The notes: generated from the letters alone by a model not told the origin. A stretch of DNA of 20,079 bases from a virus (IMGVR_UViG_3300029448_000390:5566-25644); one strand, 5' to 3'. Positions 1,192 through 19,163 are shown, counted from the first letter of the stretch. Program-made: numbers and translations.

Positions 1192-1745
1192 TCAGAGTTT
1201 TACTTGTAATTCTATTATTATCAGTATCAGTAAAAGCTTTAGCTGAAACAAATACTGTAAGTTCTACTGTTGTTACAAATAATACACCACCTACAGCCAA
1301 TTCACCCAGTGTTGTTGTAAACAATTCTGATGTTTGTAAGACGGCAGTAGCGGGCGCCGTTCAAACCCAGATCTTGGGTATTAGTAGCGGGATTACCGTC
1401 ACTGACGAAAACTGTGAAAGAATAAAATTAGCAAGATCCTTGTATGCTTCAGGAATGAAAGTGGCATCTGTGTCAATATTATGTCAAGATCCAAGAGTTT
1501 GGGATTCAATGGCCATGGCAGGTACCCCGTGCCCATACATGGGTTCTATTGGTGAAGATGCTGAAACTGGCTGGAAAGAAAACATGGATATGATTCCAGA
1601 AGGCAGTGTAGTTTATGCAAAATGGAATGATGAAATAAGTAAAATACAAGTTCTAGAAGGAGTAAAGAGTGATAAGAGTAGATTGGCAGAGTTTGTTCTC
1701 GCTGGTATTCTTTTGCACTGGGGCGTTTTTACCTTTCTCCCTTAG
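1188..1745 (+). CDS. Secreted four-cysteine phage protein (185 aa)
   Basis: The N-terminus is a textbook Sec signal peptide: MIR, a Leu/Val/Ile core (residues 4-15), then KALA followed by Glu20, a type I signal peptidase site. The mature part has a Ser/Thr/Asn-rich linker and then a compact domain with cysteines at 50, 76, 99 and 115, enough for two disulfides in the periplasm. Conserved-looking stretches are GISSGITVTDENCER and CQDPRVWDSM. The last 17 residues are strongly hydrophobic (from about AEFVLAGILLHWG), so the C-terminus may sit in a membrane. The start overlaps the upstream stop (ATGA). The last 77 nt are also read in another frame as the start of the next gene. I recall similar proteins from marine phages without assigned function. 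Confidence 0.8.
   Translation: MIRVLLVILLLSVSVKALAETNTVSSTVVTNNTPPTANSPSVVVNNSDVCKTAVAGAVQTQILGISSGITVTDENCERIKLARSLYASGMKVASVSILCQDPRVWDSMAMAGTPCPYMGSIGEDAETGWKENMDMIPEGSVVYAKWNDEISKIQVLEGVKSDKSRLAEFVLAGILLHWGVFTFLP
1656..1662 (+). promoter_or_regulatory. Ribosome binding site deciding the GTG start at 1669
   Basis: GAAGGAG lies inside the upstream gene, six bases before GTG 1669-1671. This strong Shine-Dalgarno at proper spacing supports initiation at the GTG, and therefore a true 77-nt overlap between two genes rather than a later start. The peptide that follows is a well-formed signal sequence, which supports the same start. Confidence 0.75.
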
Positions 1746-3468
1746 AGCTGAATGTCCAGTAACTGCTTCTGGAGTTTGTACTCCTGGAGTAGAAGAAACA
1801 ATTGTAATTACAGAAACAGAATCAATTGAGTATGAAGCTGATGGTCATACAGTAACTACAACTACAACGACAGATACCACAACAGTAACAGTAACCAACG
1901 AGGATTCTGGTGATATTCTTGACGGTAACAATAATTTTGTATCTTCTAGTAAAGAAGGAGATATGGATATTGATTGGGGTGGTCAAGGTCCTGCTAGTAT
2001 GCCTTCAGGTAATTCTTGTTATGAATTAGGCTCAGATAAATGTGCACAAATTACTGGATCAGGTAATTCAACGTCGACACAAGGTGTGAGTGGAATGGGA
2101 ACCACTTTTATACAGACTGTAGATATATCCTCACTTGATATAAAAAATGGAGGCAGAACAAACTATTCTATTAAAGTAGATAAAAGAGACGCAGATGATC
2201 GTATTTATATGCACATCACAGGAAAAAATGGCAATACAAGTGTCTTTTCAGGAACAGATATACTGTCAGAGTCAGGAGTAAGTAGTGGCTATCAAGAGTA
2301 TACAAATGGTTTTGATTTTGCAGGAACAATTACAAAATTAATTATAGAGGTAGGTGGACGTGATATATCTTTAGCGATTGGACCGCTCTTTGATGATGTA
2401 CGTGTAAACGTACTTTACAACGTCGTATCAACTATAATTACACAACAGATTACTACAATAGAAATGTGGATTGCATATGGTGGCAGCACAGAAACTGAAG
2501 TTATAGATATTGTAGAAAATATTTTTGAACACAATGATGTCGTAATTGATACACCACAAGATGATTTTTTCTTTGAACCAGAGTTTGATGAACCAGAAAT
2601 GGAGGTATCTTATGAAACTGTAGAGATGGAAATGGAGATGGATTATCAAATGGATTTTGAAATGGAAATGCCCGTTATGGAAGTAGAGTTTGAGATGCCA
2701 GAAATTACTGTTGAAGAAGTTAATGTAGCTTCAGTTGAGTTAGAGATGGAGATGGAACTAGAGATGGAAATAGAAATGCCTGATTTAGAATTACCTGAAC
2801 CAGATATGGAGATGCCAGAAATGGATATGGAAATGCCTGAACCAGATATGGAGATGCCAGAGACAGAGCCCGAAATGACAGAAGAGATTGAAGTTGCACC
2901 AGAACCAGATACAATGGAGCCTGAAGTAGAAGCTGAACCAGAAATGGAGGAGACAGCAAATGAAACAGAACCAGAGCCAGAATCTGAACCCGAAGTTGAG
3001 GCTGAGCCAGAACCCGTGGATGAAGCTTCTGAAGAAGATACTACAGAACCTGAAGCTGATACGGAAGAGGAGCCTGAGCCGAAAGAGAGCGTTTCAGAGG
3101 CTGAGGAGAATGAAGAGCAACCAGAAGATATGGAAGAACCAGAGGATAAGGGTAAAGCCGAAGAAAAACCTGTAAAAAAACCTGAGTCAAAAAAAGAAAA
3201 AGCAGCTAAAAAAATTGTAAAGAAGATGGGTGATAAAGGTAGATATGATTCATCAAATCAGTTAAAAACTTTAATTGTGATGCAAGTATTAGGTGACACA
3301 AAAACCTTTTTTGAATCACAAAAACAATTGGAGGATCGACTAGATTTCTTTACAGACTATATGATGCCAGATGCAGAAATACAAAACAACAATACCGCAC
3401 AGTGGTATTTATTTGGTGGAAGTGATGGTATGATGAATGATATGATAGATTTACAATGGCAGAAGTAG
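1669..3468 (+). CDS. Secreted phage protein with long acidic Glu/Met/Pro repeat (599 aa)
   Basis: The GTG start is fixed by an upstream GAAGGAG. Residues 1-27 form a Sec signal peptide (WQSLFSLVFFCTGAFLPFSLRA, written here only as a hydrophobic stretch, then Glu-Cys-Pro). Residues about 30-65 are Thr-rich, and about 90-270 form a beta-rich domain (GNSCYELGSDKCAQITGSGN and onward) that may bind or assemble extracellularly. Residues about 300-500 are extremely acidic, built from EMEMEM and PEPDMEMPE units, with a 26-nt perfect DNA repeat at 2794-2819 and 2836-2861. Then come a Lys-rich stretch (about 502-520) and a C-terminal domain with LKTLIVMQVLGDTKTFF and a Trp-containing tail. I remember that C-terminal domain from marine phages; its function is unknown. 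It overlaps the next gene by 13 nt. Confidence 0.8.
   Translation: MIRVDWQSLFSLVFFCTGAFLPFSLRAECPVTASGVCTPGVEETIVITETESIEYEADGHTVTTTTTTDTTTVTVTNEDSGDILDGNNNFVSSSKEGDMDIDWGGQGPASMPSGNSCYELGSDKCAQITGSGNSTSTQGVSGMGTTFIQTVDISSLDIKNGGRTNYSIKVDKRDADDRIYMHITGKNGNTSVFSGTDILSESGVSSGYQEYTNGFDFAGTITKLIIEVGGRDISLAIGPLFDDVRVNVLYNVVSTIITQQITTIEMWIAYGGSTETEVIDIVENIFEHNDVVIDTPQDDFFFEPEFDEPEMEVSYETVEMEMEMDYQMDFEMEMPVMEVEFEMPEITVEEVNVASVELEMEMELEMEIEMPDLELPEPDMEMPEMDMEMPEPDMEMPETEPEMTEEIEVAPEPDTMEPEVEAEPEMEETANETEPEPESEPEVEAEPEPVDEASEEDTTEPEADTEEEPEPKESVSEAEENEEQPEDMEEPEDKGKAEEKPVKKPESKKEKAAKKIVKKMGDKGRYDSSNQLKTLIVMQVLGDTKTFFESQKQLEDRLDFFTDYMMPDAEIQNNNTAQWYLFGGSDGMMNDMIDLQWQK
2590..3160 (+). repeat. Acidic low-complexity repeat tract within the 599-aa protein gene
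   Basis: The tract is a purine-rich run of GAAATGG/GAGATGG units that moves into GAACCAGA/GAGCCTGA units. It encodes first alternating Glu-Met and then Glu-Pro-Glu motifs. A perfect 26-nt direct repeat (2794-2819 and 2836-2861) lies 42 nt, or 14 codons, apart, so recent in-frame duplication is likely. The tract should be prone to length change between relatives. Confidence 0.85.
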
Positions 3469-11344: not shown

Positions 11345-11524
11345 ATGGAAAATAAAGACTTAAATAAAGCCATTGCCTACCTTGCAGATAAGGTGAGCAA
11401 ATATCACGAAAGACTACTAGCAGCGGAGAGAGATTTAGAACGTCATCTTAAAGATGAAAAGAAACACTGTGATTCCAATTGTGATTGTAAAAAACCAGAT
11501 ATAGTAAAAGCTTTATCTACTTAG
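11345..11524 (+). CDS. Small charged protein with Cys-His cluster (59 aa)
   Basis: CAGGAGACAAAC precedes ATG 11345; the frame ends at TAG 11522-11524. Residues 1-40 form a strongly charged helix (NKAIAYLADKVSKYHERLLA, then AERDLERHLKDEKK). HCDSNCDC (residues 41-48) places His41, Cys42, Cys46 and Cys48 close together, enough for a zinc or other metal site, or a redox pair. The tail is KKPDIVKALS. I do not recognise the family. The gene stands alone between two possible regulatory sequences, with its own candidate promoter. Its 3' end overlaps the convergent minus-strand gene by 8 bp, so transcripts from both sides must run into each other. Confidence 0.7.
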   Translation: MENKDLNKAIAYLADKVSKYHERLLAAERDLERHLKDEKKHCDSNCDCKKPDIVKALST

Positions 11525-11768
11525 GAGTAGATCCCAACATATCTTTTAAAGATGGTGCAAATACTTTTACGTCTCTTTGAATTTTTTCTGCAGTTGTAGA
11601 AGTGTTTGGATCGTCTATATCTGCTTGCATGGCAGCTTCTGATTCATACTCTTGACCTGTATCTTTGTTAGTTAAAGTAGTTTCTGTTTTAACTTTGTAT
11701 CTAGGAATTACTCTTCCATCTTCGAGAGTCATTGTTCCTATTTTTTCTGCGTTTTCAACTATCGGCAT
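11517..11768 (-). CDS. Small virion-type protein (83 aa)
   Basis: Last gene of the minus-strand unit. GGAGA lies about eight bases before the ATG. The sequence GTMTLEDGRVIPRYKVKTE is followed by an acidic stretch (GQEYESEAAMQADIDDPNTS) and TAEKIQRDVKVFAPSL. I recall the EADIDDPxTxTxxxDIxRDVxVFAPSLG pattern from cyanophages and other marine phages, where it is annotated only as a hypothetical or virion protein. It overlaps the end of the oxygenase gene upstream of it by 14 nt. Its stop lies inside the 3' end of the convergent 59-aa gene. No catalytic residues are apparent. Confidence 0.7.
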   Translation of the reverse strand: MPIVENAEKIGTMTLEDGRVIPRYKVKTETTLTNKDTGQEYESEAAMQADIDDPNTSTTAEKIQRDVKVFAPSLKDMLGSTPK

Positions 11769-12348
11769 TTTCGTGTCTCCAATTAATATTAAAACTTAAA
11801 ATAACTCTATCTTGATTAGAATTATTAAGTTGTACTTCATGTTGTAACCATGATGGAAAAAAAATCAAGCTATTCTCTTTTGGTTCCCAAGAAACGCTGT
11901 GTGCTAAGTGTATAGAAGCGTCTTTTTTCTTTGGTGGCGATAAGACCTCTGCTTGTGGTTTTGGCTCCAAAAACACTAAATTTCCGCTTTTAGAGGGCAC
12001 TTTTAAGTAGTAAACACCAGATATATAATTATAGGGATGAGTATGCACATTGTTTCTAGATCCAGGTGGATTTATCATACCCCAAAGGCCAGTCATTTCA
12101 GGACAATATTCATCTTGTACATCAAGATTATTAAAACATTCTTTTGCTTTTAATAAAATGTCAGCTACTGTGCTTTTAAATTCTAAGTCTTTGTAGAGTT
12201 CATCGTGACTATGCCATCCACCAACATTTGATCTAGGCATACCCTTTTCGTCTTTTTGTTTTATTTCATAAAGTCTGTCAATTAAATGACTATGACCTTT
12301 AATTTCTGTCATCATGACAGGTGTAATAAATAACGATTGTAATTCCAT
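11755..12348 (-). CDS. 2OG-Fe(II) oxygenase-like protein, TIGR02466 type (197 aa)
   Basis: The double-stranded beta-helix signature is clear. NNVHTHPYNYISGVYYLKVP (residues 99-118) supplies His102 and His104, SGNLVFLEP forms the next strands, and FFPSWLQHEV (163-172) supplies the distal His170. Arg181 in DRVILSFNINW would bind the 2-oxoglutarate carboxylate. This is the TIGR02466/2OG-FeII_Oxy_5 arrangement, in which the usual HxD is often HxH. Such enzymes couple 2-oxoglutarate decarboxylation to hydroxylation of a substrate; here the substrate is unknown. TAAGGAG seven bases before the ATG is a strong ribosome binding site. It lies between two virion-type genes. Confidence 0.85.
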   Translation of the reverse strand: MELQSLFITPVMMTEIKGHSHLIDRLYEIKQKDEKGMPRSNVGGWHSHDELYKDLEFKSTVADILLKAKECFNNLDVQDEYCPEMTGLWGMINPPGSRNNVHTHPYNYISGVYYLKVPSKSGNLVFLEPKPQAEVLSPPKKKDASIHLAHSVSWEPKENSLIFFPSWLQHEVQLNNSNQDRVILSFNINWRHENADS

Positions 12349-12361
12349 TCTTTCTCCTTAT

Positions 12362-12724
12362 TTAAAGTTGACCTTTTGTAACCTCCATAAAACTAACGAT
12401 TATGTGTACTTGATTAGCTGCGTTTGCCTGTGCTTTTAATACGTCAGACTCTTGCAATACTAAAGGTTGTGTTAATAATTCTGTTGTTGTGTTAGTTGCT
12501 ACACTTTTTTGCTTAAATATTTCAAATGTTGCAGATGATCTTACAACTTCAATATCAACTAAAGTTGTTGAACCTGAGTCATTACAAATTAAAATTGATT
12601 TTACTACGTCTGTAGTAGGAGGAACTGGTGGTGTTGCACCAGGATTAGCAGTTGGAACTGTTAATACAGTTGTTAAATCTGTTGATGTAATATCAACCAT
12701 TGCACTTTTAAATGTATTAGCCAA
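12362..12724 (-). CDS. Virion structural-type protein (120 aa), TTG start
   Basis: Starts with TTG in TTGGCTAATACA, overlapping the end of the 55-aa gene by 8 nt, with no strong Shine-Dalgarno; coupled translation is likely. The protein is beta-rich: FKSAMVDITSTDLTTVLTVP, a Pro-rich loop (ANPGATPPVPPTTD), then VVKSILICNDSGSTTLVDIE and a long strand region ending in IIVSFMEVTKGQL. I recall this VKxIxxxNxxxSxxTxVxV layout from a marine phage virion protein that is small and abundant. No motif for catalysis. It sits among genes for virion parts and oxygenases. Confidence 0.65.
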   Translation of the reverse strand: MANTFKSAMVDITSTDLTTVLTVPTANPGATPPVPPTTDVVKSILICNDSGSTTLVDIEVVRSSATFEIFKQKSVATNTTTELLTQPLVLQESDVLKAQANAANQVHIIVSFMEVTKGQL

Positions 12725-12884
12725 GGAAAAATGTCTCCGACTCTGATTCTTCTTTTAAATCTTGTTGAAAGTTTGTGTTTAATAAAAAAACTATTTGATC
12801 TAGTAATCTTATCATTTGATCAAATTGAGCAGCATTATATTCTGGTGTTGCATTTGGTAATCGAGTTATATTTATTTTAGCCAT
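12717..12884 (-). CDS. Small virion-type protein (55 aa), ITRLPNATPEYN type
   Basis: This frame fills the gap between two larger minus-strand genes. The ATG is at 12884-12882 and the TAA at 12719-12717. The peptide has ITRLPNATPEYNAAQFDQ, a helix (MIRLLDQIVFLLNTNF) and an acidic end (QQDLKEESESETFFLG). I recall this pattern, xLPxATPEYxxxQxxxLxRxLxxxxxxLN, from small proteins of cyanophages and other marine phages, often next to the 120-aa protein. The start lies one base past the end of the oxygenase gene above it, and the stop overlaps the next TTG start. Real gene likely; role probably structural. Confidence 0.7.
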   Translation of the reverse strand: MAKINITRLPNATPEYNAAQFDQMIRLLDQIVFLLNTNFQQDLKEESESETFFLG

Positions 12885-12885
12885 A

Positions 12886-13416
12886 CTATTGTTTATTATA
12901 AAAAAGACTTAAAGTCATTCTAAATTTAGGACCTACTTTTGATTGTGGACGTATTGTATGTGGTATTTGACCATCAAATAAAATAATTCTACCTGGCACA
13001 AAAGCACTAGCAAATATAATCTTATTAAAATCAAATTTGTCAAAAAACAAAGTCTCTCCGTACCACCCATCTCTCCAATTCAAATTCAGGTAAACTAACA
13101 CAACTTGTGAACCTCTATGGGAGTGTATGTGATGAACATCCTCTGATTTTACAAGGTTCAAAACTGCAGTGCTAAGATTTTCGTTAGTAAACCAACTTGT
13201 TTCTTTAATACAAGGTTTAATAAACTCTAGTATTTTAGTTCTGTTTAAATCCTCCAAGGACCATTCAGAATGTAAGTTAGGATCTGTAATGTGTTCACCT
13301 GAAGCAAAATCATTCCATCCTATTTTAAAATTACAACGACTAGCGTATGTATATAATACATCTCTAAATTCTAAAGGAATTATATTATCGTAAAATTTTA
13401 TATTATCTTCTGCCAT
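12886..13416 (-). CDS. 2OG-Fe(II) oxygenase-like protein (176 aa), unusual metal site
   Basis: The beta-helix fold is indicated by HHIHSHRGSQVVLVYLNLNW (residues 95-114), GWYGETLFFD (117-126), GRIILFDGQIPHTIRP (142-157) and FRMTLSLFY (165-173). The distal His153 and Arg166 fit the Fe and 2-oxoglutarate ligands of prolyl-4-hydroxylase-like phage enzymes. At the first site the family normally has HxD; here I see HIHSHRG, so the metal must be held by His-x-His or the enzyme may be altered. The ATG is 14 nt inside the end of the nozzle-like gene. Substrate is unknown. It is a different subfamily from the two TIGR02466-like proteins of this unit. Confidence 0.75.
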   Translation of the reverse strand: MAEDNIKFYDNIIPLEFRDVLYTYASRCNFKIGWNDFASGEHITDPNLHSEWSLEDLNRTKILEFIKPCIKETSWFTNENLSTAVLNLVKSEDVHHIHSHRGSQVVLVYLNLNWRDGWYGETLFFDKFDFNKIIFASAFVPGRIILFDGQIPHTIRPQSKVGPKFRMTLSLFYNKQ

Positions 13417-15247
13417 CAGGCCTTATTTGAATTTTTTGTGAGCCTAATCGCCAAGGTGTATCGTTTACTGTGCTAGTTTGATATTTAATTTTTACAGCTC
13501 TACCTCTTCCTCTTACGTTTATTTTTTCAGTGGTGCTAGTAATTGATCCAGTGGTTGTAACATTTGAGGATGACTGAGGATACTGTTCTAAAGTTAGTGT
13601 AGCTGTCATGGTATTTGTTAAATTATCAAAGTCAGGCACTAATTTACTTACTGACATAAGTGAATCACCGTCAGCTATTTCAACTGATCCAGTTTCTAAA
13701 AATGCGGATATGGCGGTGCCATCAGCTTGATTGTTACCTGTCTCATGTTCATACACAAAAGAAGCACCTGCAGTTAATCCTAATATAGTAGAAACATTTG
13801 CTGTAGTTGAGCTACTAAATTCTGTTGCTATTGGTTTTTCGTATACGTATGCACCTAACCAGGTAGTTCTACCTAAAGAATTAGTATACCACGTTCCTTC
13901 AAGATAATTGTATGCCACAGATCTATCTATTTGAGATGCGTCTGCTGATGGGTAATACCAAATTATTTCGTTGTAAGCAGTGTTTAAACCAACAGCTATG
14001 TCGTTTTTATTTGTATAGCTAAGATCATCGAAAACAAAGTCTTGAACAGAACAAGGCATTTTTTTAACTACACCATCAAATAAATAAAAAGCATTATCTG
14101 ACATCCAGTATGCTACACCATTAACTTCTATCGCTGCATGTTGAGCAATTAAACCTGCATTAGCTCCAAGTTGTCTTAGTCCAAATGTAAAAGGTGTTCC
14201 AACAAATTGAATACCGTGAAGTGAAGTATCAGTCCAAACAAGTATTTGTCCTGTTGATTTAACTGCGCCAATAATTCTTGAACCGTCTGTAATTCTAAGA
14301 GATCCAGCTTCGTTAGTAGCCACTGGTGTGTAATCTGTTGCATCTTCTCTATCTGAAAATCTAAATAGTAAATCGTCTTGTGTTGCTGTATCACCTATTG
14401 TTGTTTCAGTTCCAAATATCATTAAGTGTCTAGTATCAGTAGATACTATGCTAAATCTTGATGCTGTTGGAGCGTTTGATAAAGCAGTTGCTCTAGCAGA
14501 CAAACCTCCTGATGTATCCCATATAAACGTTCCACCATCTAAAACTGTGGCTATTAAGTCTTCTCCAAAATTATCTAAAGACCAGTTTCTACCAGCCACT
14601 ACAACATTAGAAGATGATCTAGCAGTATCCCAAGTGCTTGCTCCCCACGTTTCTGTACCCCAACCATAACCATATGTGGATGTAGCAGGGCCTACACTAA
14701 TTTGATATTTTGCATTACCTGATCCTCCTCCTCCAGAGGTAGAACCAGAAGCAGTACTAGTATGTGTAACGGTATAAGCACTTGCACTTGTTACTGATGT
14801 AACTTCAAACTCTTTATTCATGTCCAAACCATCAATCGTTGAAAAAGAATCAAAGGTAACAAAATCACCAACACTCGCACCGTGAGCTGCGTCCGCTACA
14901 GATACTGTAGTTGTCCCATTGGTTGTAAATGGATTAGATAAACTTTCGGTTTGTCTTAAAGGTGTTATGTCATATAGTTTACCCTCAGAGTAAATATATA
15001 ATTTTCTATCAGTACCTAAAGCTAAATATCTGGTGCCGTCTAAACCAATCCAACTGTGGGTATCTCTTACAACTCCGACCACTGTTTTATTAGGATTTGG
15101 TAAAAATGCCCATCCACCCCATCTCTCAGGTTTTCCGTAGTGAAATCTTACAAAGTCAGAGTCAATATATTTACGTTGATCTCCTGCAGAATAAGCTGAA
15201 TCTTGCTTGTCAACACCTGGTTTAAATTTTAAATCAACTAATTGCAT
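13403..15247 (-). CDS. Tail nozzle / P22 gp10-like stabilization protein (614 aa)
   Basis: The largest gene of the minus-strand unit. It opens with KFKPGVDKQDSAYSAGDQ and KYIDSDFVRFHYGKPERWGG, a start I recall from marine podovirus virion proteins. Blade-like beta repeats follow: LGTDRKLYIYSEGKLYDITP, GTFIWDTSGG, RFSIVSTDTRHLMIFG, LVWTDTSLHGIQFVG, and YWMSDNAFYLFDGVVKK. A Gly/Ser-rich loop (GSTSGGGGSG) sits near residue 170. Beta-propeller-like proteins of this size act as tail nozzles or packaged-DNA stabilisers (P22 gp10 and similar). The start ATG has only a weak ribosome binding site. Position opposite in strand to the adaptor gene is notable. Confidence 0.75.
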   Translation of the reverse strand: MQLVDLKFKPGVDKQDSAYSAGDQRKYIDSDFVRFHYGKPERWGGWAFLPNPNKTVVGVVRDTHSWIGLDGTRYLALGTDRKLYIYSEGKLYDITPLRQTESLSNPFTTNGTTTVSVADAAHGASVGDFVTFDSFSTIDGLDMNKEFEVTSVTSASAYTVTHTSTASGSTSGGGGSGNAKYQISVGPATSTYGYGWGTETWGASTWDTARSSSNVVVAGRNWSLDNFGEDLIATVLDGGTFIWDTSGGLSARATALSNAPTASRFSIVSTDTRHLMIFGTETTIGDTATQDDLLFRFSDREDATDYTPVATNEAGSLRITDGSRIIGAVKSTGQILVWTDTSLHGIQFVGTPFTFGLRQLGANAGLIAQHAAIEVNGVAYWMSDNAFYLFDGVVKKMPCSVQDFVFDDLSYTNKNDIAVGLNTAYNEIIWYYPSADASQIDRSVAYNYLEGTWYTNSLGRTTWLGAYVYEKPIATEFSSSTTANVSTILGLTAGASFVYEHETGNNQADGTAISAFLETGSVEIADGDSLMSVSKLVPDFDNLTNTMTATLTLEQYPQSSSNVTTTGSITSTTEKINVRGRGRAVKIKYQTSTVNDTPWRLGSQKIQIRPDGRR

Positions 15248-15261
15248 GACTAATTAATAAA

Positions 15262-16062
15262 TTACTTCTTGTCTTGTGGCAAGAATTGAGTACCAACATT
15301 GCCTTGAAATGCAAAATTACCGTAATGCGTCATACCGCTTGTAATATCAGCATATATTTTTCCACCCATATTTTGCCATAATCGACAAAAAGCATAGTCT
15401 TCTGATAAGTATCTCTTTGTTTCAGGCTCTACCATGGTATCAAAAAAAGTATAATTCCAATTGGATGTTTCATGATAATCAAATTCTTTATCGTGTGGTG
15501 CGTTTATATGCTGATCTGGTGTAAATTGTTTGTCGGGATAATAATAAGCCATCTGTTCAAAAACACGTTTTTTAATTAACATAAATCCTGTTGCCCCATC
15601 CATAACTTCAATAAAACCTTTTGTCATTTCTATTTTATTAGGATCTTTTACATTCAAATTGTACTGTAAAGAGGTAGCCAACAATTCATCTTCCGATATT
15701 TCTGGGTCATCAATCACTTTGTTTTTTACTTTTGTCCAATCTATTGTTTTACGTGGATACACGCCCGTTACGACATCTTTGTTAAAGTCAACCATTCTTA
15801 AAACTGATTCAGGGTTAAAAGCTAAATCTGCATCTATAAATAAAAGGTGAGTGTAATCACCATCCATAAATAATTGCACTAAAGTATTTCTAGCTCTTGT
15901 AATTAAGGACTCATTACCAATTGTTGCAAACTGTAATTCAATTTGTTTAGATGCACATAGTGCTACTAACTGCATGCAGCTTTTAAAATAGCTTGATGTT
16001 ATCATGCCACCATAACATGGTGTACCGACAAATAGCTTTATTTGTATATTTTCTTTTTCCAA
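15262..16062 (-). CDS. GT-A fold glycosyltransferase-like protein (266 aa)
   Basis: Residues 9-19 (KLFVGTPCYGG) form the first nucleotide-binding strand. LITRARNTLVQLFM lies at 53-66, and HLLFIDADLAF (72-82) holds the DxD metal/nucleotide-sugar motif at Asp77-Asp79. GVYPRK (100-105) and the late SEDYAFCRLWQNMGG (220-234), with a likely acidic catalytic residue, complete a GT-A fold. I remember this protein type from many marine phages. It would transfer a sugar from a nucleotide donor; the acceptor could be a virion protein, phage DNA or host glycan and cannot be told here. Start is TTG, overlapping the previous gene by 25 nt, with no clear ribosome binding site. Confidence 0.8.
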   Translation of the reverse strand: MEKENIQIKLFVGTPCYGGMITSSYFKSCMQLVALCASKQIELQFATIGNESLITRARNTLVQLFMDGDYTHLLFIDADLAFNPESVLRMVDFNKDVVTGVYPRKTIDWTKVKNKVIDDPEISEDELLATSLQYNLNVKDPNKIEMTKGFIEVMDGATGFMLIKKRVFEQMAYYYPDKQFTPDQHINAPHDKEFDYHETSNWNYTFFDTMVEPETKRYLSEDYAFCRLWQNMGGKIYADITSGMTHYGNFAFQGNVGTQFLPQDKK

Positions 16063-16778
16063 ATTAATTTTTTATAAGCATCTTTTAAATAAGAAAAGAA
16101 ATCATATTTAAACCTTTCAATTTTTTTATCTGAAAAAGGTTTTTTTTGTGTTACTTTCATTTTCCAATTATCTCTTTTAAAAGGAAATACATTAGCTACT
16201 AGAAATCCTTTTGATATAATTTTATTTGGATTTAAAGTTTCATCCCAATCTTGCAAGTAAAAAGTAAAGTTTACAGGTTGACTATATTCATCTGTGTCAA
16301 CAATACCTGTAACGAGTCTTACATCTGTCTTCTCTCTGTTAAAAGGACCTGTAAAAAGACAACTATAGCCTGGTGGTGTTTTTATTGTCCATGGGTTTAA
16401 AAATTTAAAAGGTATTGGTATTTCATTTGGATGCAACATGTTATCTGGCACTTGAAATTTATAATGACCCAATGCCCCAATATTAGCTTCAGGATATGCG
16501 CCTTTTACATCATTAAAAATATTTCCTGCTTGAATATTAATTTCTTTAACACCAGTATTTTCATTTATTTTTTTTGTAAACATAATATCAAATGGCAATT
16601 TTATAACGTAACCACAAGTCATAGCATCTAAAAAAGGCACACATTTTTTAACCGTGGGATCATTAAGATCATTGTTCATATGTGTTTCAAATTTTTTTAA
16701 CCAATCAGGTGTAGCTTTACTAAGTGGGACTGGTTTATCAATTAAGTCTGCGTATTGACTAAAAAATTCTATTTTCAA
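16038..16778 (-). CDS. Uncharacterised phage protein, possible DUF6065-like (246 aa)
   Basis: Starts at TTG in a TTGA overlap with the preceding stop, with AGAGAAG nearby as ribosome binding site. The conserved-looking core is KKCVPFLDAMTCGYVIKLPF, then a beta-rich region with LLHPNEIPIPFKFLNPWTIK as a loose pattern, followed by TPPGYSCLFTGPFN. The end is basic (KKLIWKKKIYK). The C-P-F-L-D-A-M-T-x-GY start followed by NPWTIKTPPGYSxLFTxPxN recalls DUF6065-like proteins; I cannot confirm this. In other marine phages it accompanies glycosyltransferase and oxygenase genes, as here. No metal-binding triad is evident. Confidence 0.65.
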   Translation of the reverse strand: MKIEFFSQYADLIDKPVPLSKATPDWLKKFETHMNNDLNDPTVKKCVPFLDAMTCGYVIKLPFDIMFTKKINENTGVKEINIQAGNIFNDVKGAYPEANIGALGHYKFQVPDNMLHPNEIPIPFKFLNPWTIKTPPGYSCLFTGPFNREKTDVRLVTGIVDTDEYSQPVNFTFYLQDWDETLNPNKIISKGFLVANVFPFKRDNWKMKVTQKKPFSDKKIERFKYDFFSYLKDAYKKLIWKKKIYK

Positions 16779-17287
16779 AATTCTTCTCTATAAAAAATAT
16801 TTAAAGTGTATCTTTCTGAACTTTCACCAAAAGATTGTAAGTCTGAGTGCGGTATTTCAGCTCCGTTAAAAAACAAAGCTCTATTTTCTACAAAACCTAT
16901 GTGTGAAGATAGTGAATTATTATGCATAAAACCTGTGCCATTATTAAGAAGAGGTTCTCCTTTTGCAAAAAATAAAAAATTAGCTGCATTATCTTTTGCA
17001 ATGTCTCTATGAAACATAGCCTCTTTATCATTAATTCTTTTATGTGCAGATACACTTATAGGAACTAAATTTCTATGAGGAAAAAAATACCCTTTAATTA
17101 ATTTTAATAATGGATCATCGTGAAAACTTTTTGGAAAAGTGTGACGCTTACCAATAATTCTCCCTGTTCCGTCTTTTGATTCTCCGTATTTTAGTGTTAA
17201 TAAAGTTTCTTGTAAAGAATGTAATGTTTTTGCCTCTAAAAAATTATCTAAGTACATTACAAATTTAGTCTGTCTAGTGTGTTGCAT
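16775..17287 (-). CDS. 2OG-Fe(II) oxygenase-like protein (170 aa), intact HxD
   Basis: Residues 91-107 (MFHRDIAKDNAANFLFF) give His93-x-Asp95. The later GFVENRALFFNGAEIPHSDL (131-150) gives His147, and ERYTLNIFY (158-166) gives Arg159, so a full 2-His-1-carboxylate iron site and a 2-oxoglutarate anchor are visible. The N-terminal half (VMYLDNFLEAKTLHSLQETL) is the usual helical lead-in. The protein is shorter than most stand-alone hydroxylases but within the range of phage members. The start overlaps the 90-aa gene by 14 nt, and its stop overlaps the next TTG start. Its substrate is unknown; neighbours suggest virion or surface modification. Confidence 0.75.
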   Translation of the reverse strand: MQHTRQTKFVMYLDNFLEAKTLHSLQETLLTLKYGESKDGTGRIIGKRHTFPKSFHDDPLLKLIKGYFFPHRNLVPISVSAHKRINDKEAMFHRDIAKDNAANFLFFAKGEPLLNNGTGFMHNNSLSSHIGFVENRALFFNGAEIPHSDLQSFGESSERYTLNIFYREEF

Positions 17288-17546
17288 ATTCTACCTGTAA
17301 ATATTCTATTTTTCTAACCCACCCTCTTGGTATGGCTATTGCTCCCCCTCCATGATTATCATCTTTATCTGTGCACCATGAACGCATAATAACTATTTTG
17401 TCATCATTGTTTACGACCATGTATCCTACTTCTTGGCACACGGCCAACGGAGCAGATAAGATTTCTTTTACATCTAACCATCCTGTTTCCGTATCACGTG
17501 CATCTTGCCACGTTATTCTCACCATAGGTATTTTATTTATATCCAT
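17274..17546 (-). CDS. Small conserved phage protein (90 aa), MVRITWQDA type
   Basis: The protein has a compact alpha/beta look: MVRITWQDARDTETGWLD, VKEILSAPLAVCQEVGYMVV, NDDKIVIMRSWCTDKDDN, and IAIPRGWVRKIEYLQ. I recall the W-x-D-A...GW-x-x...TVGYxVxxxxxKIxxxxS...IPxGxVxxIxxL layout as common in marine phages and related bacterial genes, with no known function. AAGGATGG marks the start region, and the gene overlaps the end of the oxygenase upstream of it by 14 nt. It is the only clearly non-oxygenase gene at the head of this unit. No metal ligands or signal sequence stand out. Confidence 0.7.
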   Translation of the reverse strand: MDINKIPMVRITWQDARDTETGWLDVKEILSAPLAVCQEVGYMVVNNDDKIVIMRSWCTDKDDNHGGGAIAIPRGWVRKIEYLQVEYATH

Positions 17547-18207
17547 CCTTATTAAACTCTTTTTTCTTTTTTAAATGTAAATTAAAAGACACAGATCTTC
17601 TTTCTTCATTAGGTGTTCTAAATGGATAAACACCGTGAGAAAGCCATGCAGGAAAAAGATAAATAGCTCCAACCTCTGGAGTCGCTTGATGTTTGTGACC
17701 ACTAAAATGTGCTGCTTGACCAGCATGCCAAACTATATCACCGACACAAGGATAATGATCTTCTTTTGCATATTCTTCTTTTAAACTAGGAGGCACACGT
17801 AGATAAATTACACCCGATAATTCACCTTGATGAATATGAAAAGGGTTGAAGTCTCCCGCCCATTGGCTCACGGACCACATAGATTCAATAACCATAGCAC
17901 CAACATAGTCGGGTGATATTGTATCTGACGCTGGTGGAATAGATATGTATTGTTTTACGATTTCACCTAATGCTTTTACCACAGGTGCAAAAGTTTCACT
18001 TCCTAAAAACTCATCAGGGTAACGCACTTCTTTTTGAACATTGCCAGCCAAATGCATAGAGTGGTCATACTTTTTATATAATTCATCATTATCAAATAAT
18101 TCAGTTGCCTTATCATCTAATATTTTAATCATATATTCAGGCAATTTACCTTGAAATATAGTAGGGCCAAAAGGTCTAATTGCGTGAAATTCTACTTCAG
18201 TCGACAT
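17533..18207 (-). CDS. 2OG-Fe(II) oxygenase-like protein, TIGR02466 type (224 aa)
   Basis: The first gene of the minus-strand unit, with AAGGAAG before the ATG. Core elements are WAGDFNPFHIHQGELSGVIY (residues 116-135) with His124 and His126, then the loop GDIVW...HFSGHKHQATPEVG, and AIYLFPAWLSHGVYPF (181-196) with His191. Arg203 or Arg204 before SVSFNL would bind 2-oxoglutarate. The HxH pair, SGVIYL strand and FPAWLSH match TIGR02466-type proteins, as does the 197-aa protein at 11755-12348. The pair differs enough elsewhere that they may act on different targets. It lies beside the divergent promoter region and probably leads transcription of the whole unit. Confidence 0.85.
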   Translation of the reverse strand: MSTEVEFHAIRPFGPTIFQGKLPEYMIKILDDKATELFDNDELYKKYDHSMHLAGNVQKEVRYPDEFLGSETFAPVVKALGEIVKQYISIPPASDTISPDYVGAMVIESMWSVSQWAGDFNPFHIHQGELSGVIYLRVPPSLKEEYAKEDHYPCVGDIVWHAGQAAHFSGHKHQATPEVGAIYLFPAWLSHGVYPFRTPNEERRSVSFNLHLKKKKEFNKDGYK

Positions 18208-18341: not shown

Positions 18342-19163
18342 ATGCTCAAAGGATTAAAGGGAATATTAGAAAAAGGTTTACAGATTGCAGCGCCGTTAAT
18401 TGGTAATGCAATACTACCAGGAGGTTTCGGTGCAGCAGCAGGAACAGGCATAGCTTCACTATTATCAGGAGCAAAACCAAGAGATGCTCTATTACAAGCT
18501 ACAGCAGCAGGAGTATTAGGTAGACAATTTTCACCAGCAGCAGGTAAGCAAACATCTTCTGGAAATCCTTTAGTTGATTTTTTTCAGAGAGGCACTAGAC
18601 AAACTAATACAGGCGGTAATCTACCAAAGGAACAGAGTTTATTTAGTAAAGTAGGAGGGGCATTGATGCAAGATGGAAAGCCCACGGCTCTCGGAACAGG
18701 TTTAGCTGTAGGATTACCAGCGATATTAGCAGGTATAGGAGCGGCAGCTGATGCAAGAAAAGCACAACCTATGGACCCAGCAAATTACATGAGTGCAGTT
18801 GATAGAGAATATGGTGGACAATTTGCATCCCCACCAGCAAATAGAAGAATTATGAATATAGATCCAGTGAACAGAGCAGATGGTGGCATCATGGATTCAA
18901 TGCCAAATCAAAATATTTCATTTAGCGCTGTAGATGGTAGTGATATGGGTGGTGTCATGACAATGGCTGATGGCGGTCAAACATTTCCAAGAAAAACAGG
19001 GATGATAAATGGACCTGGAGGTCCAAAAGAAGATAAGATTCCAGCAATGTTAAGCGATGGTGAATTTGTATTTACTGCAAAAGCAGTTGACAATGCAGGT
19101 GGACCAAAGGCTATGTATAATATGATGAACAAACTTGACCCAGAATCGGAGAAACCAAACTAA
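18342..19163 (+). CDS. Probable internal/ejected virion protein, Gly/Ala-rich (273 aa)
   Basis: AAAGGAGA precedes the ATG. Residues 1-60 contain a Gly/Ala/Leu-rich amphipathic stretch (LQIAAPLIGNAILPGGFGAA), and about 115-136 (ALGTGLAVGLPAILAGIGAA) could enter a membrane. The C-terminal third carries KTGMINGPGGPKEDKIPAM, LSDGEFVFTAKAVDNAGGP and MYNMMNKLDP, a segment I recall from many marine phages, sometimes fused to virion proteins. Its two RADGGIM/MADGGQT elements resemble the GG motif of the basic proteins. Membrane-seeking segments suggest a role in DNA ejection across the host envelope (inference). TAATG couples it to the next gene; both follow the strong promoter. Confidence 0.65.
   Translation: MLKGLKGILEKGLQIAAPLIGNAILPGGFGAAAGTGIASLLSGAKPRDALLQATAAGVLGRQFSPAAGKQTSSGNPLVDFFQRGTRQTNTGGNLPKEQSLFSKVGGALMQDGKPTALGTGLAVGLPAILAGIGAAADARKAQPMDPANYMSAVDREYGGQFASPPANRRIMNIDPVNRADGGIMDSMPNQNISFSAVDGSDMGGVMTMADGGQTFPRKTGMINGPGGPKEDKIPAMLSDGEFVFTAKAVDNAGGPKAMYNMMNKLDPESEKPN

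Follow-up and report, generated by a model that had tools for sequence, protein, structure and literature searches.

The window analysed here, the whole stretch of 20,079 nucleotides, covers positions 5566-25644 of a record, 25,644 bases long, from an uncultivated marine phage. It contains a block of genes that all lie on the minus strand and mostly touch or overlap. Read from 18207 to 11517, their order is oxD, p90, oxC, DUF6065, GT, nozzle, oxB, p55, p120, oxA and p83. Block counts in the list refer to the relatives described below.

18342..19163, plus strand: p273, whose C-terminus has a tape-measure-like motif; divergent gene at the edge of the block
17533..18207, minus strand: oxD, 2OG-Fe(II) oxygenase, PF13759; core; beside p273 in 40/40 complete blocks
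17274..17546, minus strand: p90, 90 aa, phrog_25889; conserved backbone protein
16775..17287, minus strand: oxC, 2OG-Fe(II) oxygenase, HxD..H..R, assigned from phrog_274 and a structure model; in 33/40 blocks
16038..16778, minus strand: DUF6065 protein; place varies among relatives; distant relatives in haloviruses
15262..16062, minus strand: GT, GT-A-type glycosyltransferase, phrog_1574; DxD invariant; backbone gene
13403..15247, minus strand: nozzle / stabilization-type virion protein, phrog_3287
12886..13416, minus strand: oxB, accessory 2OG-Fe(II) oxygenase, phrog_274, FlmC-like; HxH variant
12717..12884, minus strand: p55, 55 aa; adjoins nozzle in most relatives
12362..12724, minus strand: p120, predicted to be a virion protein with a jelly roll; its Pro-rich loop (PGATPPVPPTT, about residues 28-38) is a candidate substrate
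11755..12348, minus strand: oxA, 2OG-Fe(II) oxygenase, TIGR02466; core gene, flanked by p120 and p83 in 40/40 complete blocks
11517..11768, minus strand: p83, 83 aa; conserved backbone protein; overlaps the end of oxA

An earlier note on this DNA had placed oxygenase-like genes at 11755, 12886, 16775 and 17533. All four open reading frames are present there on the minus strand, and virion genes and a GT-A enzyme are indeed interleaved with them on that strand. Counts of promoter-like sequences are close to shuffled expectation and those of terminator-like sequences slightly above it, which argues neither for nor against a single transcript. Judging from its virion genes, the block would be expressed late.

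Some further features of the record deserve mention. Upstream of the window, a lysozyme-like gene is directly followed by a fifth 2OG oxygenase gene (L007:546-1115; phrog_81, PF13759). Between 247 and 6088 of the window a number of small basic proteins very rich in Lys are encoded, and MGG-type repeats occur in some of them; those tested have no Pfam match. The phage-record relatives listed for the DUF6065 protein (16038-16778) are haloarchaeal tailed viruses (29-32% identity), which is odd for a marine phage gene.

Identity and active sites of the four oxygenases

The four genes encode genuine, distinct 2OG-Fe(II) oxygenases, as the earlier note had proposed. oxA passes the thresholds of both PF13759 (2.1e-24) and TIGR02466 (9e-34; 117 bits against a cut-off of 62.5). 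oxD passes that of PF13759 (6.5e-18) and falls below that of TIGR02466 (49.2 against 62.5 bits). The Pfam match of oxB is weak (PF13640, E 0.01, below cut-off), and its whole length matches phrog_274 (6.5e-12) and an NCBIfam FlmC-type 2OG oxygenase (1.9e-11, below cut-off). For oxC, phrog_274 is the sole family match (1.5e-7) and no Pfam match was found. Comparing the profiles of oxC and oxA gives no alignment of note, so these two represent separate subfamilies, in line with the suggestion that the four belong to at least two.

The textbook metal motif of 2OG oxygenases is HxD/E. The complete HxD/E...H triad is found in oxC only, whereas oxA, oxD and oxB have HxH. The catalytic residues are H102, H104, H170 and R181 in oxA, H124, H126, H191 and R204 in oxD, H93, D95, H147 and R159 in oxC, and H98, H153 and R166 in oxB, all of them invariant or nearly so in alignments. 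The last residue of each series is the 2OG-binding Arg that follows the distal His. HxH is the norm in the oxA and oxD alignments, and the solved relatives 3bvc and 2rg4 align to oxA with the same motif. It is unusual for oxB, which has H100 where D is expected (D in 27/29 aligned sequences). The distal His/Arg part picked out by the earlier note is thus present in all four, but so is the proximal half, and the active sites look intact. Median dN/dS (pairs with dS 0.1-1) is 0.125 for oxA, 0.134 for oxC and 0.218 for oxD, compared with 0.10 for GT and 0.117 for p120. oxA, oxC and oxD are therefore under purifying selection. Catalysis by the four enzymes with Fe(II) and 2OG is putative.

Since the oxC profile found no match among PDB sequences, a predicted structure was used instead. 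The AlphaFold2 model (pLDDT 88) has the 2OG oxygenase fold, a double-stranded beta-helix. A Foldseek search of the PDB returned 431 chains at E <= 0.001, the top ones listed all being 2OG oxygenases. Foldseek ranks small-molecule enzymes first, with PBCV-1 vCPH tenth. By Z score the best matches are protein prolyl hydroxylases, led by PHD2 (Z 15.9, rmsd 2.9, 160 residues) and P. putida P4H (Z 15.5), with Trichoplax PHD also present and OGFOD1 lower in the list. The predicted structure of oxC thus appears most like those of protein prolyl hydroxylases, although the fold alone shows no substrate.

What might such enzymes act on? Nucleic acids or nucleotides, modified in the manner of AlkB or TET, come to mind because phrog_274 is labelled "DNA endonuclease V", and HTVC023P-type phages carry genes for DNA hypermodification at other places in the genome (PMC9599517). 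However, the oxC model and active-site motifs contradict that label, the best matches of the model being prolyl hydroxylases, and oxA and oxD fall in PF13759/TIGR02466 and not in the AlkB or TET families. This reading is very improbable indeed.

Host proteins such as translation factors or ribosomal proteins are another candidate. P. putida P4H acts on EF-Tu and OGFOD1 on a ribosomal protein, and the closest structures to oxC include P4H with EF-Tu (4iw3, Z 15.4) and OGFOD1 (4nhx, Z 14.9). However, a setting among virion genes would be unexpected for host-takeover genes, and the strain-to-strain turnover described in the next section would fit a conserved host target poorly. Hydroxylation of host proteins seems an unlikely function.

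Fixed and variable positions among relatives

Six scans of viral contigs, taking the best 80 matches per scan, enlarged the collection to 395 loci. Many of these contigs are fragments, and some appear in the collection as two loci that overlap; blocks sharing an identical nozzle entered the counts a single time. Relatives of the nozzle among phage records include DSL-LC04, HTVC027P, HTVC023P and CRP-901. In the clade of the window a backbone recurs, consisting of p273, oxD, p90, GT, nozzle, p55, p120, oxA and p83, with extra oxygenases between. The nozzle, p55, p120, p273 and GT are shared with HTVC023P-type pelagiphages, but the gene order differs.

From p273 to p83 there are 3-8 oxygenases in each of 43 blocks with distinct nozzles, whereas 14/15 well-flanked DSL-LC04-type loci have none. 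For this reason the clustering of oxygenases is not due to chance. When the count was tightened by filtering on the active site, 40 distinct complete blocks were left, and grouping their oxygenases at 45% identity (single linkage) gave 21 families in 26 distinct arrangements. oxD-type and oxA-type genes occupy the same places in 40/40 blocks and oxC is present in 33/40. The other 18 families occur in 1 to 7 genomes each, coming and going in the slots. This turnover is fast: nozzle pairs that are at least 95% identical have the same oxygenase set in only 7/32 cases.

Two distant nozzle relatives (L392 and L395, 33-34% identical to CRP-901) have three oxygenases and a DUF6065 gene around the nozzle. 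Neither has an oxygenase directly after p120, and L392 has a short p120 loop.

One clue about the host comes from a close relative (nozzle 85%, oxA 86%) on a 28-kb contig, whose genome assembly bears the title uncultured Alphaproteobacteria bacterium isolate AG-910-K03. The host may accordingly be an alphaproteobacterium. The contig (L396) has five oxygenase-like ORFs in 8 kb (at 2522, 3350, 4132, 5401 and 5955) and is a host lead.

The layout also bears on the idea that these are auxiliary metabolic genes, whose products would alter nitrogen, iron or energy metabolism during infection, either by oxidising small molecules of the host or by depleting 2-oxoglutarate. This is how phage 2OG oxygenases have been read by the authors who described them in cyanophages and pelagiphages (PMC3037559, PMC9599517; see also PMC11561400, where 2OG oxygenase genes are enriched in seasonal viral groups). 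Infection by HTVC027P raises expression of host iron transporter genes (PMC12753301), and some relatives carry ferrochelatase. However, a metabolic role leaves unexplained why two enzymes are fixed among virion genes in every complete block and why up to eight diverse ones are kept. Furthermore, family searches found no ferrochelatase in the window or the 25.6-kb record, which may be a fragment; one of these searches was without a positive control match. We consider a metabolic role rather less than probable.

Candidate substrates and the glycosyltransferase

The earlier note had named small proteins, or the nozzle, as possible targets. For p120 this is plausible. Its model (pLDDT 88) is a predicted jelly roll, to which phage cement and turret proteins, but also nucleoplasmin-type proteins, align with Z of about 10. 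The jelly-roll resemblance makes a virion role moderately well founded, and so does the unchanging position close to the nozzle. In the clade of the window, p120 has an insertion of 10-12 residues, mostly GATPPVPPTT, in the loop between the strands at residues 18-22 and 37-48. Among genes with a readable next gene, an oxygenase lies directly downstream of p120 in 136/136 cases with the loop and in 1/123 without it. However, the loop is monophyletic on the nozzle tree, with one change, so its co-occurrence with oxA amounts to one evolutionary event. In addition, that tree includes two distinct loci where p120 lacks the loop and is nevertheless followed by an oxygenase. The link between loop and oxygenase, as read from gene neighbourhoods, is a lead and not proof.

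The suggestion fares less well for the other small proteins, as inspection of the p83, p55 and p90 sequences revealed no Pro- or Lys-based feature. p55 is conserved in phages that lack these oxygenases nearby, and it is homologous to the N-terminal end of a DSL-LC04 ORF of 477 aa (L003:10857-12287). Together these observations make it look like a virion attachment module. They also led us to reject the idea that the small proteins are peptide precursors in a natural-product-like pathway. Elsewhere in the window (1669-3468), a 599-aa ORF without family match contains a very long low-complexity region rich in Met, Glu, Pro and Asp, with runs such as PEPDMEMPE. It could be another proline-rich substrate.

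Where does the glycosyltransferase fit? It has E221-D222 and a DxD (D77, D79) that is invariant in 23 sequences, as befits a GT-A type, even though it falls below the cut-off of Pfam Glycos_transf_2 (21.1 against 23.3 bits). The closest solved relative of its profile is A197 of STIV (2c0n), likewise a viral GT-A enzyme, whose presumed target for glycosylation is a viral coat protein (PMC10551542). However, the match is weak (E 0.0056) and STIV is a virus of an archaeon.

The A197 match would suit the pathway put forward in the earlier note, in which Lys or Pro of a virion protein is hydroxylated and then glycosylated by the GT at 15262. So would the co-occurrence of GT and oxygenases, which holds throughout the clade of the window. 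Beyond it the two may occur apart. GT is present in 7/7 well-flanked HTVC023P-type loci, of which 2/7 have no oxygenase within their flanks; conversely, DSL-LC04 has an oxygenase and lacks GT in the stretch examined. The flanks are short in both cases and neither is decisive. Judging from gene content, GT is a backbone gene in the window clade and in HTVC023P-type phages and appears not to be tied to the oxygenases, which turn over around it. An obligatory couple is thus not supported, and the pathway as a whole is improbable.

The explanation that we prefer, tentatively and at somewhat less than even confidence, is that Fe(II)/2OG oxygenases have been recruited into a virion-gene unit to hydroxylate protein side chains, most likely of phage proteins made from the same block. 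oxD and oxA are its fixed members, oxC is a nearly fixed one and oxB an accessory; in relatives, at least 18 other families supply the accessory enzymes. Using Fe(II), O2 and 2-oxoglutarate, oxA may act on the Pro-rich loop of neighbouring p120, the accessory enzymes might vary the modification between strains, and GT may add sugar to virion proteins independently of the oxygenases. Protein side chains are favoured as targets by the structural matches of oxC taken together with the position and diversity of the oxygenases and the p120 loop. Perhaps the arrangement is even a combinatorial cassette for virion modification, with core hydroxylases acting on fixed late proteins (oxA on the p120 loop) and the fast-changing accessory set making the surface chemically distinct from strain to strain, which might serve receptor binding or help the phage to follow changes in its host. 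This extension is a doubtful one.

Comparison with known systems

Clusters of several oxygenases are not new: pelagiphages of the HTVC023P type (PMC9599517) and cyanophages (PMC9602691) are published examples. Genomes of the former were reported to encode eight 2OG oxygenases that are not orthologous to one another and that often lie close together and close to ferrochelatase (PMC9599517). Like the window, HTVC023P and HTVC027P have a related nozzle (about 40% identity), p55, p120, a GT and several non-orthologous oxygenases in proximity. However, their oxygenases lie before the nozzle, whereas the core ones of the window clade lie beside p273 and between p120 and p83. The published set also differs in the frequent adjacency of oxygenases to ferrochelatase. 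HTVC023P-type phages have in addition a second GT (group 1), and their p120 lacks the Pro-rich loop and is followed by an oxygenase only in rare exceptions.

The cyanophages show a similar mixture of likeness and difference. S-SCSM1 carries 24 2OG oxygenases (PMC9602691), and the sets of S-SCSM1, P-SSM2 and others include the same subfamilies, PF13759 and PF13640 (PMC9602691, PMC3037559). oxA is 35% identical to a P-SSM2 protein, and the closest phage-record relative of oxB (46%) is a protein of cyanophage S-SCSM2R. However, these phages are T4-like with much larger genomes, and oxC has no match in their records or anywhere among 50,697 phage records.

Among proteins of known structure, oxA aligns over its own length with the TIGR02466 proteins 3bvc and 2rg4, sharing the H and R positions as well as HxH, but both are uncharacterized entries in the PDB. 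oxC shares its predicted fold and HxD..H..R with the protein prolyl 4-hydroxylases (PHD2, P. putida P4H, PBCV-1 vCPH), but only about 11-17% sequence identity in structural alignments.

In the main text of open-access papers we found nothing relevant on phage virion hydroxylation among the results listed, no tested substrate assigned to phage 2OG oxygenases, and no description of the core-plus-slots layout, the oxC subfamily or the p120 loop. These last three, the loop as a candidate substrate, therefore appear to be new. Some of the most abundant phages in the ocean commonly carry 2OG oxygenases as accessory genes. A fixed place between virion genes, together with a named loop (GATPPVPPTT in p120), makes the question of their substrate experimentally approachable. 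If virion hydroxylation is real, these genes would belong to the chemistry of the particle and no longer to "auxiliary metabolism".
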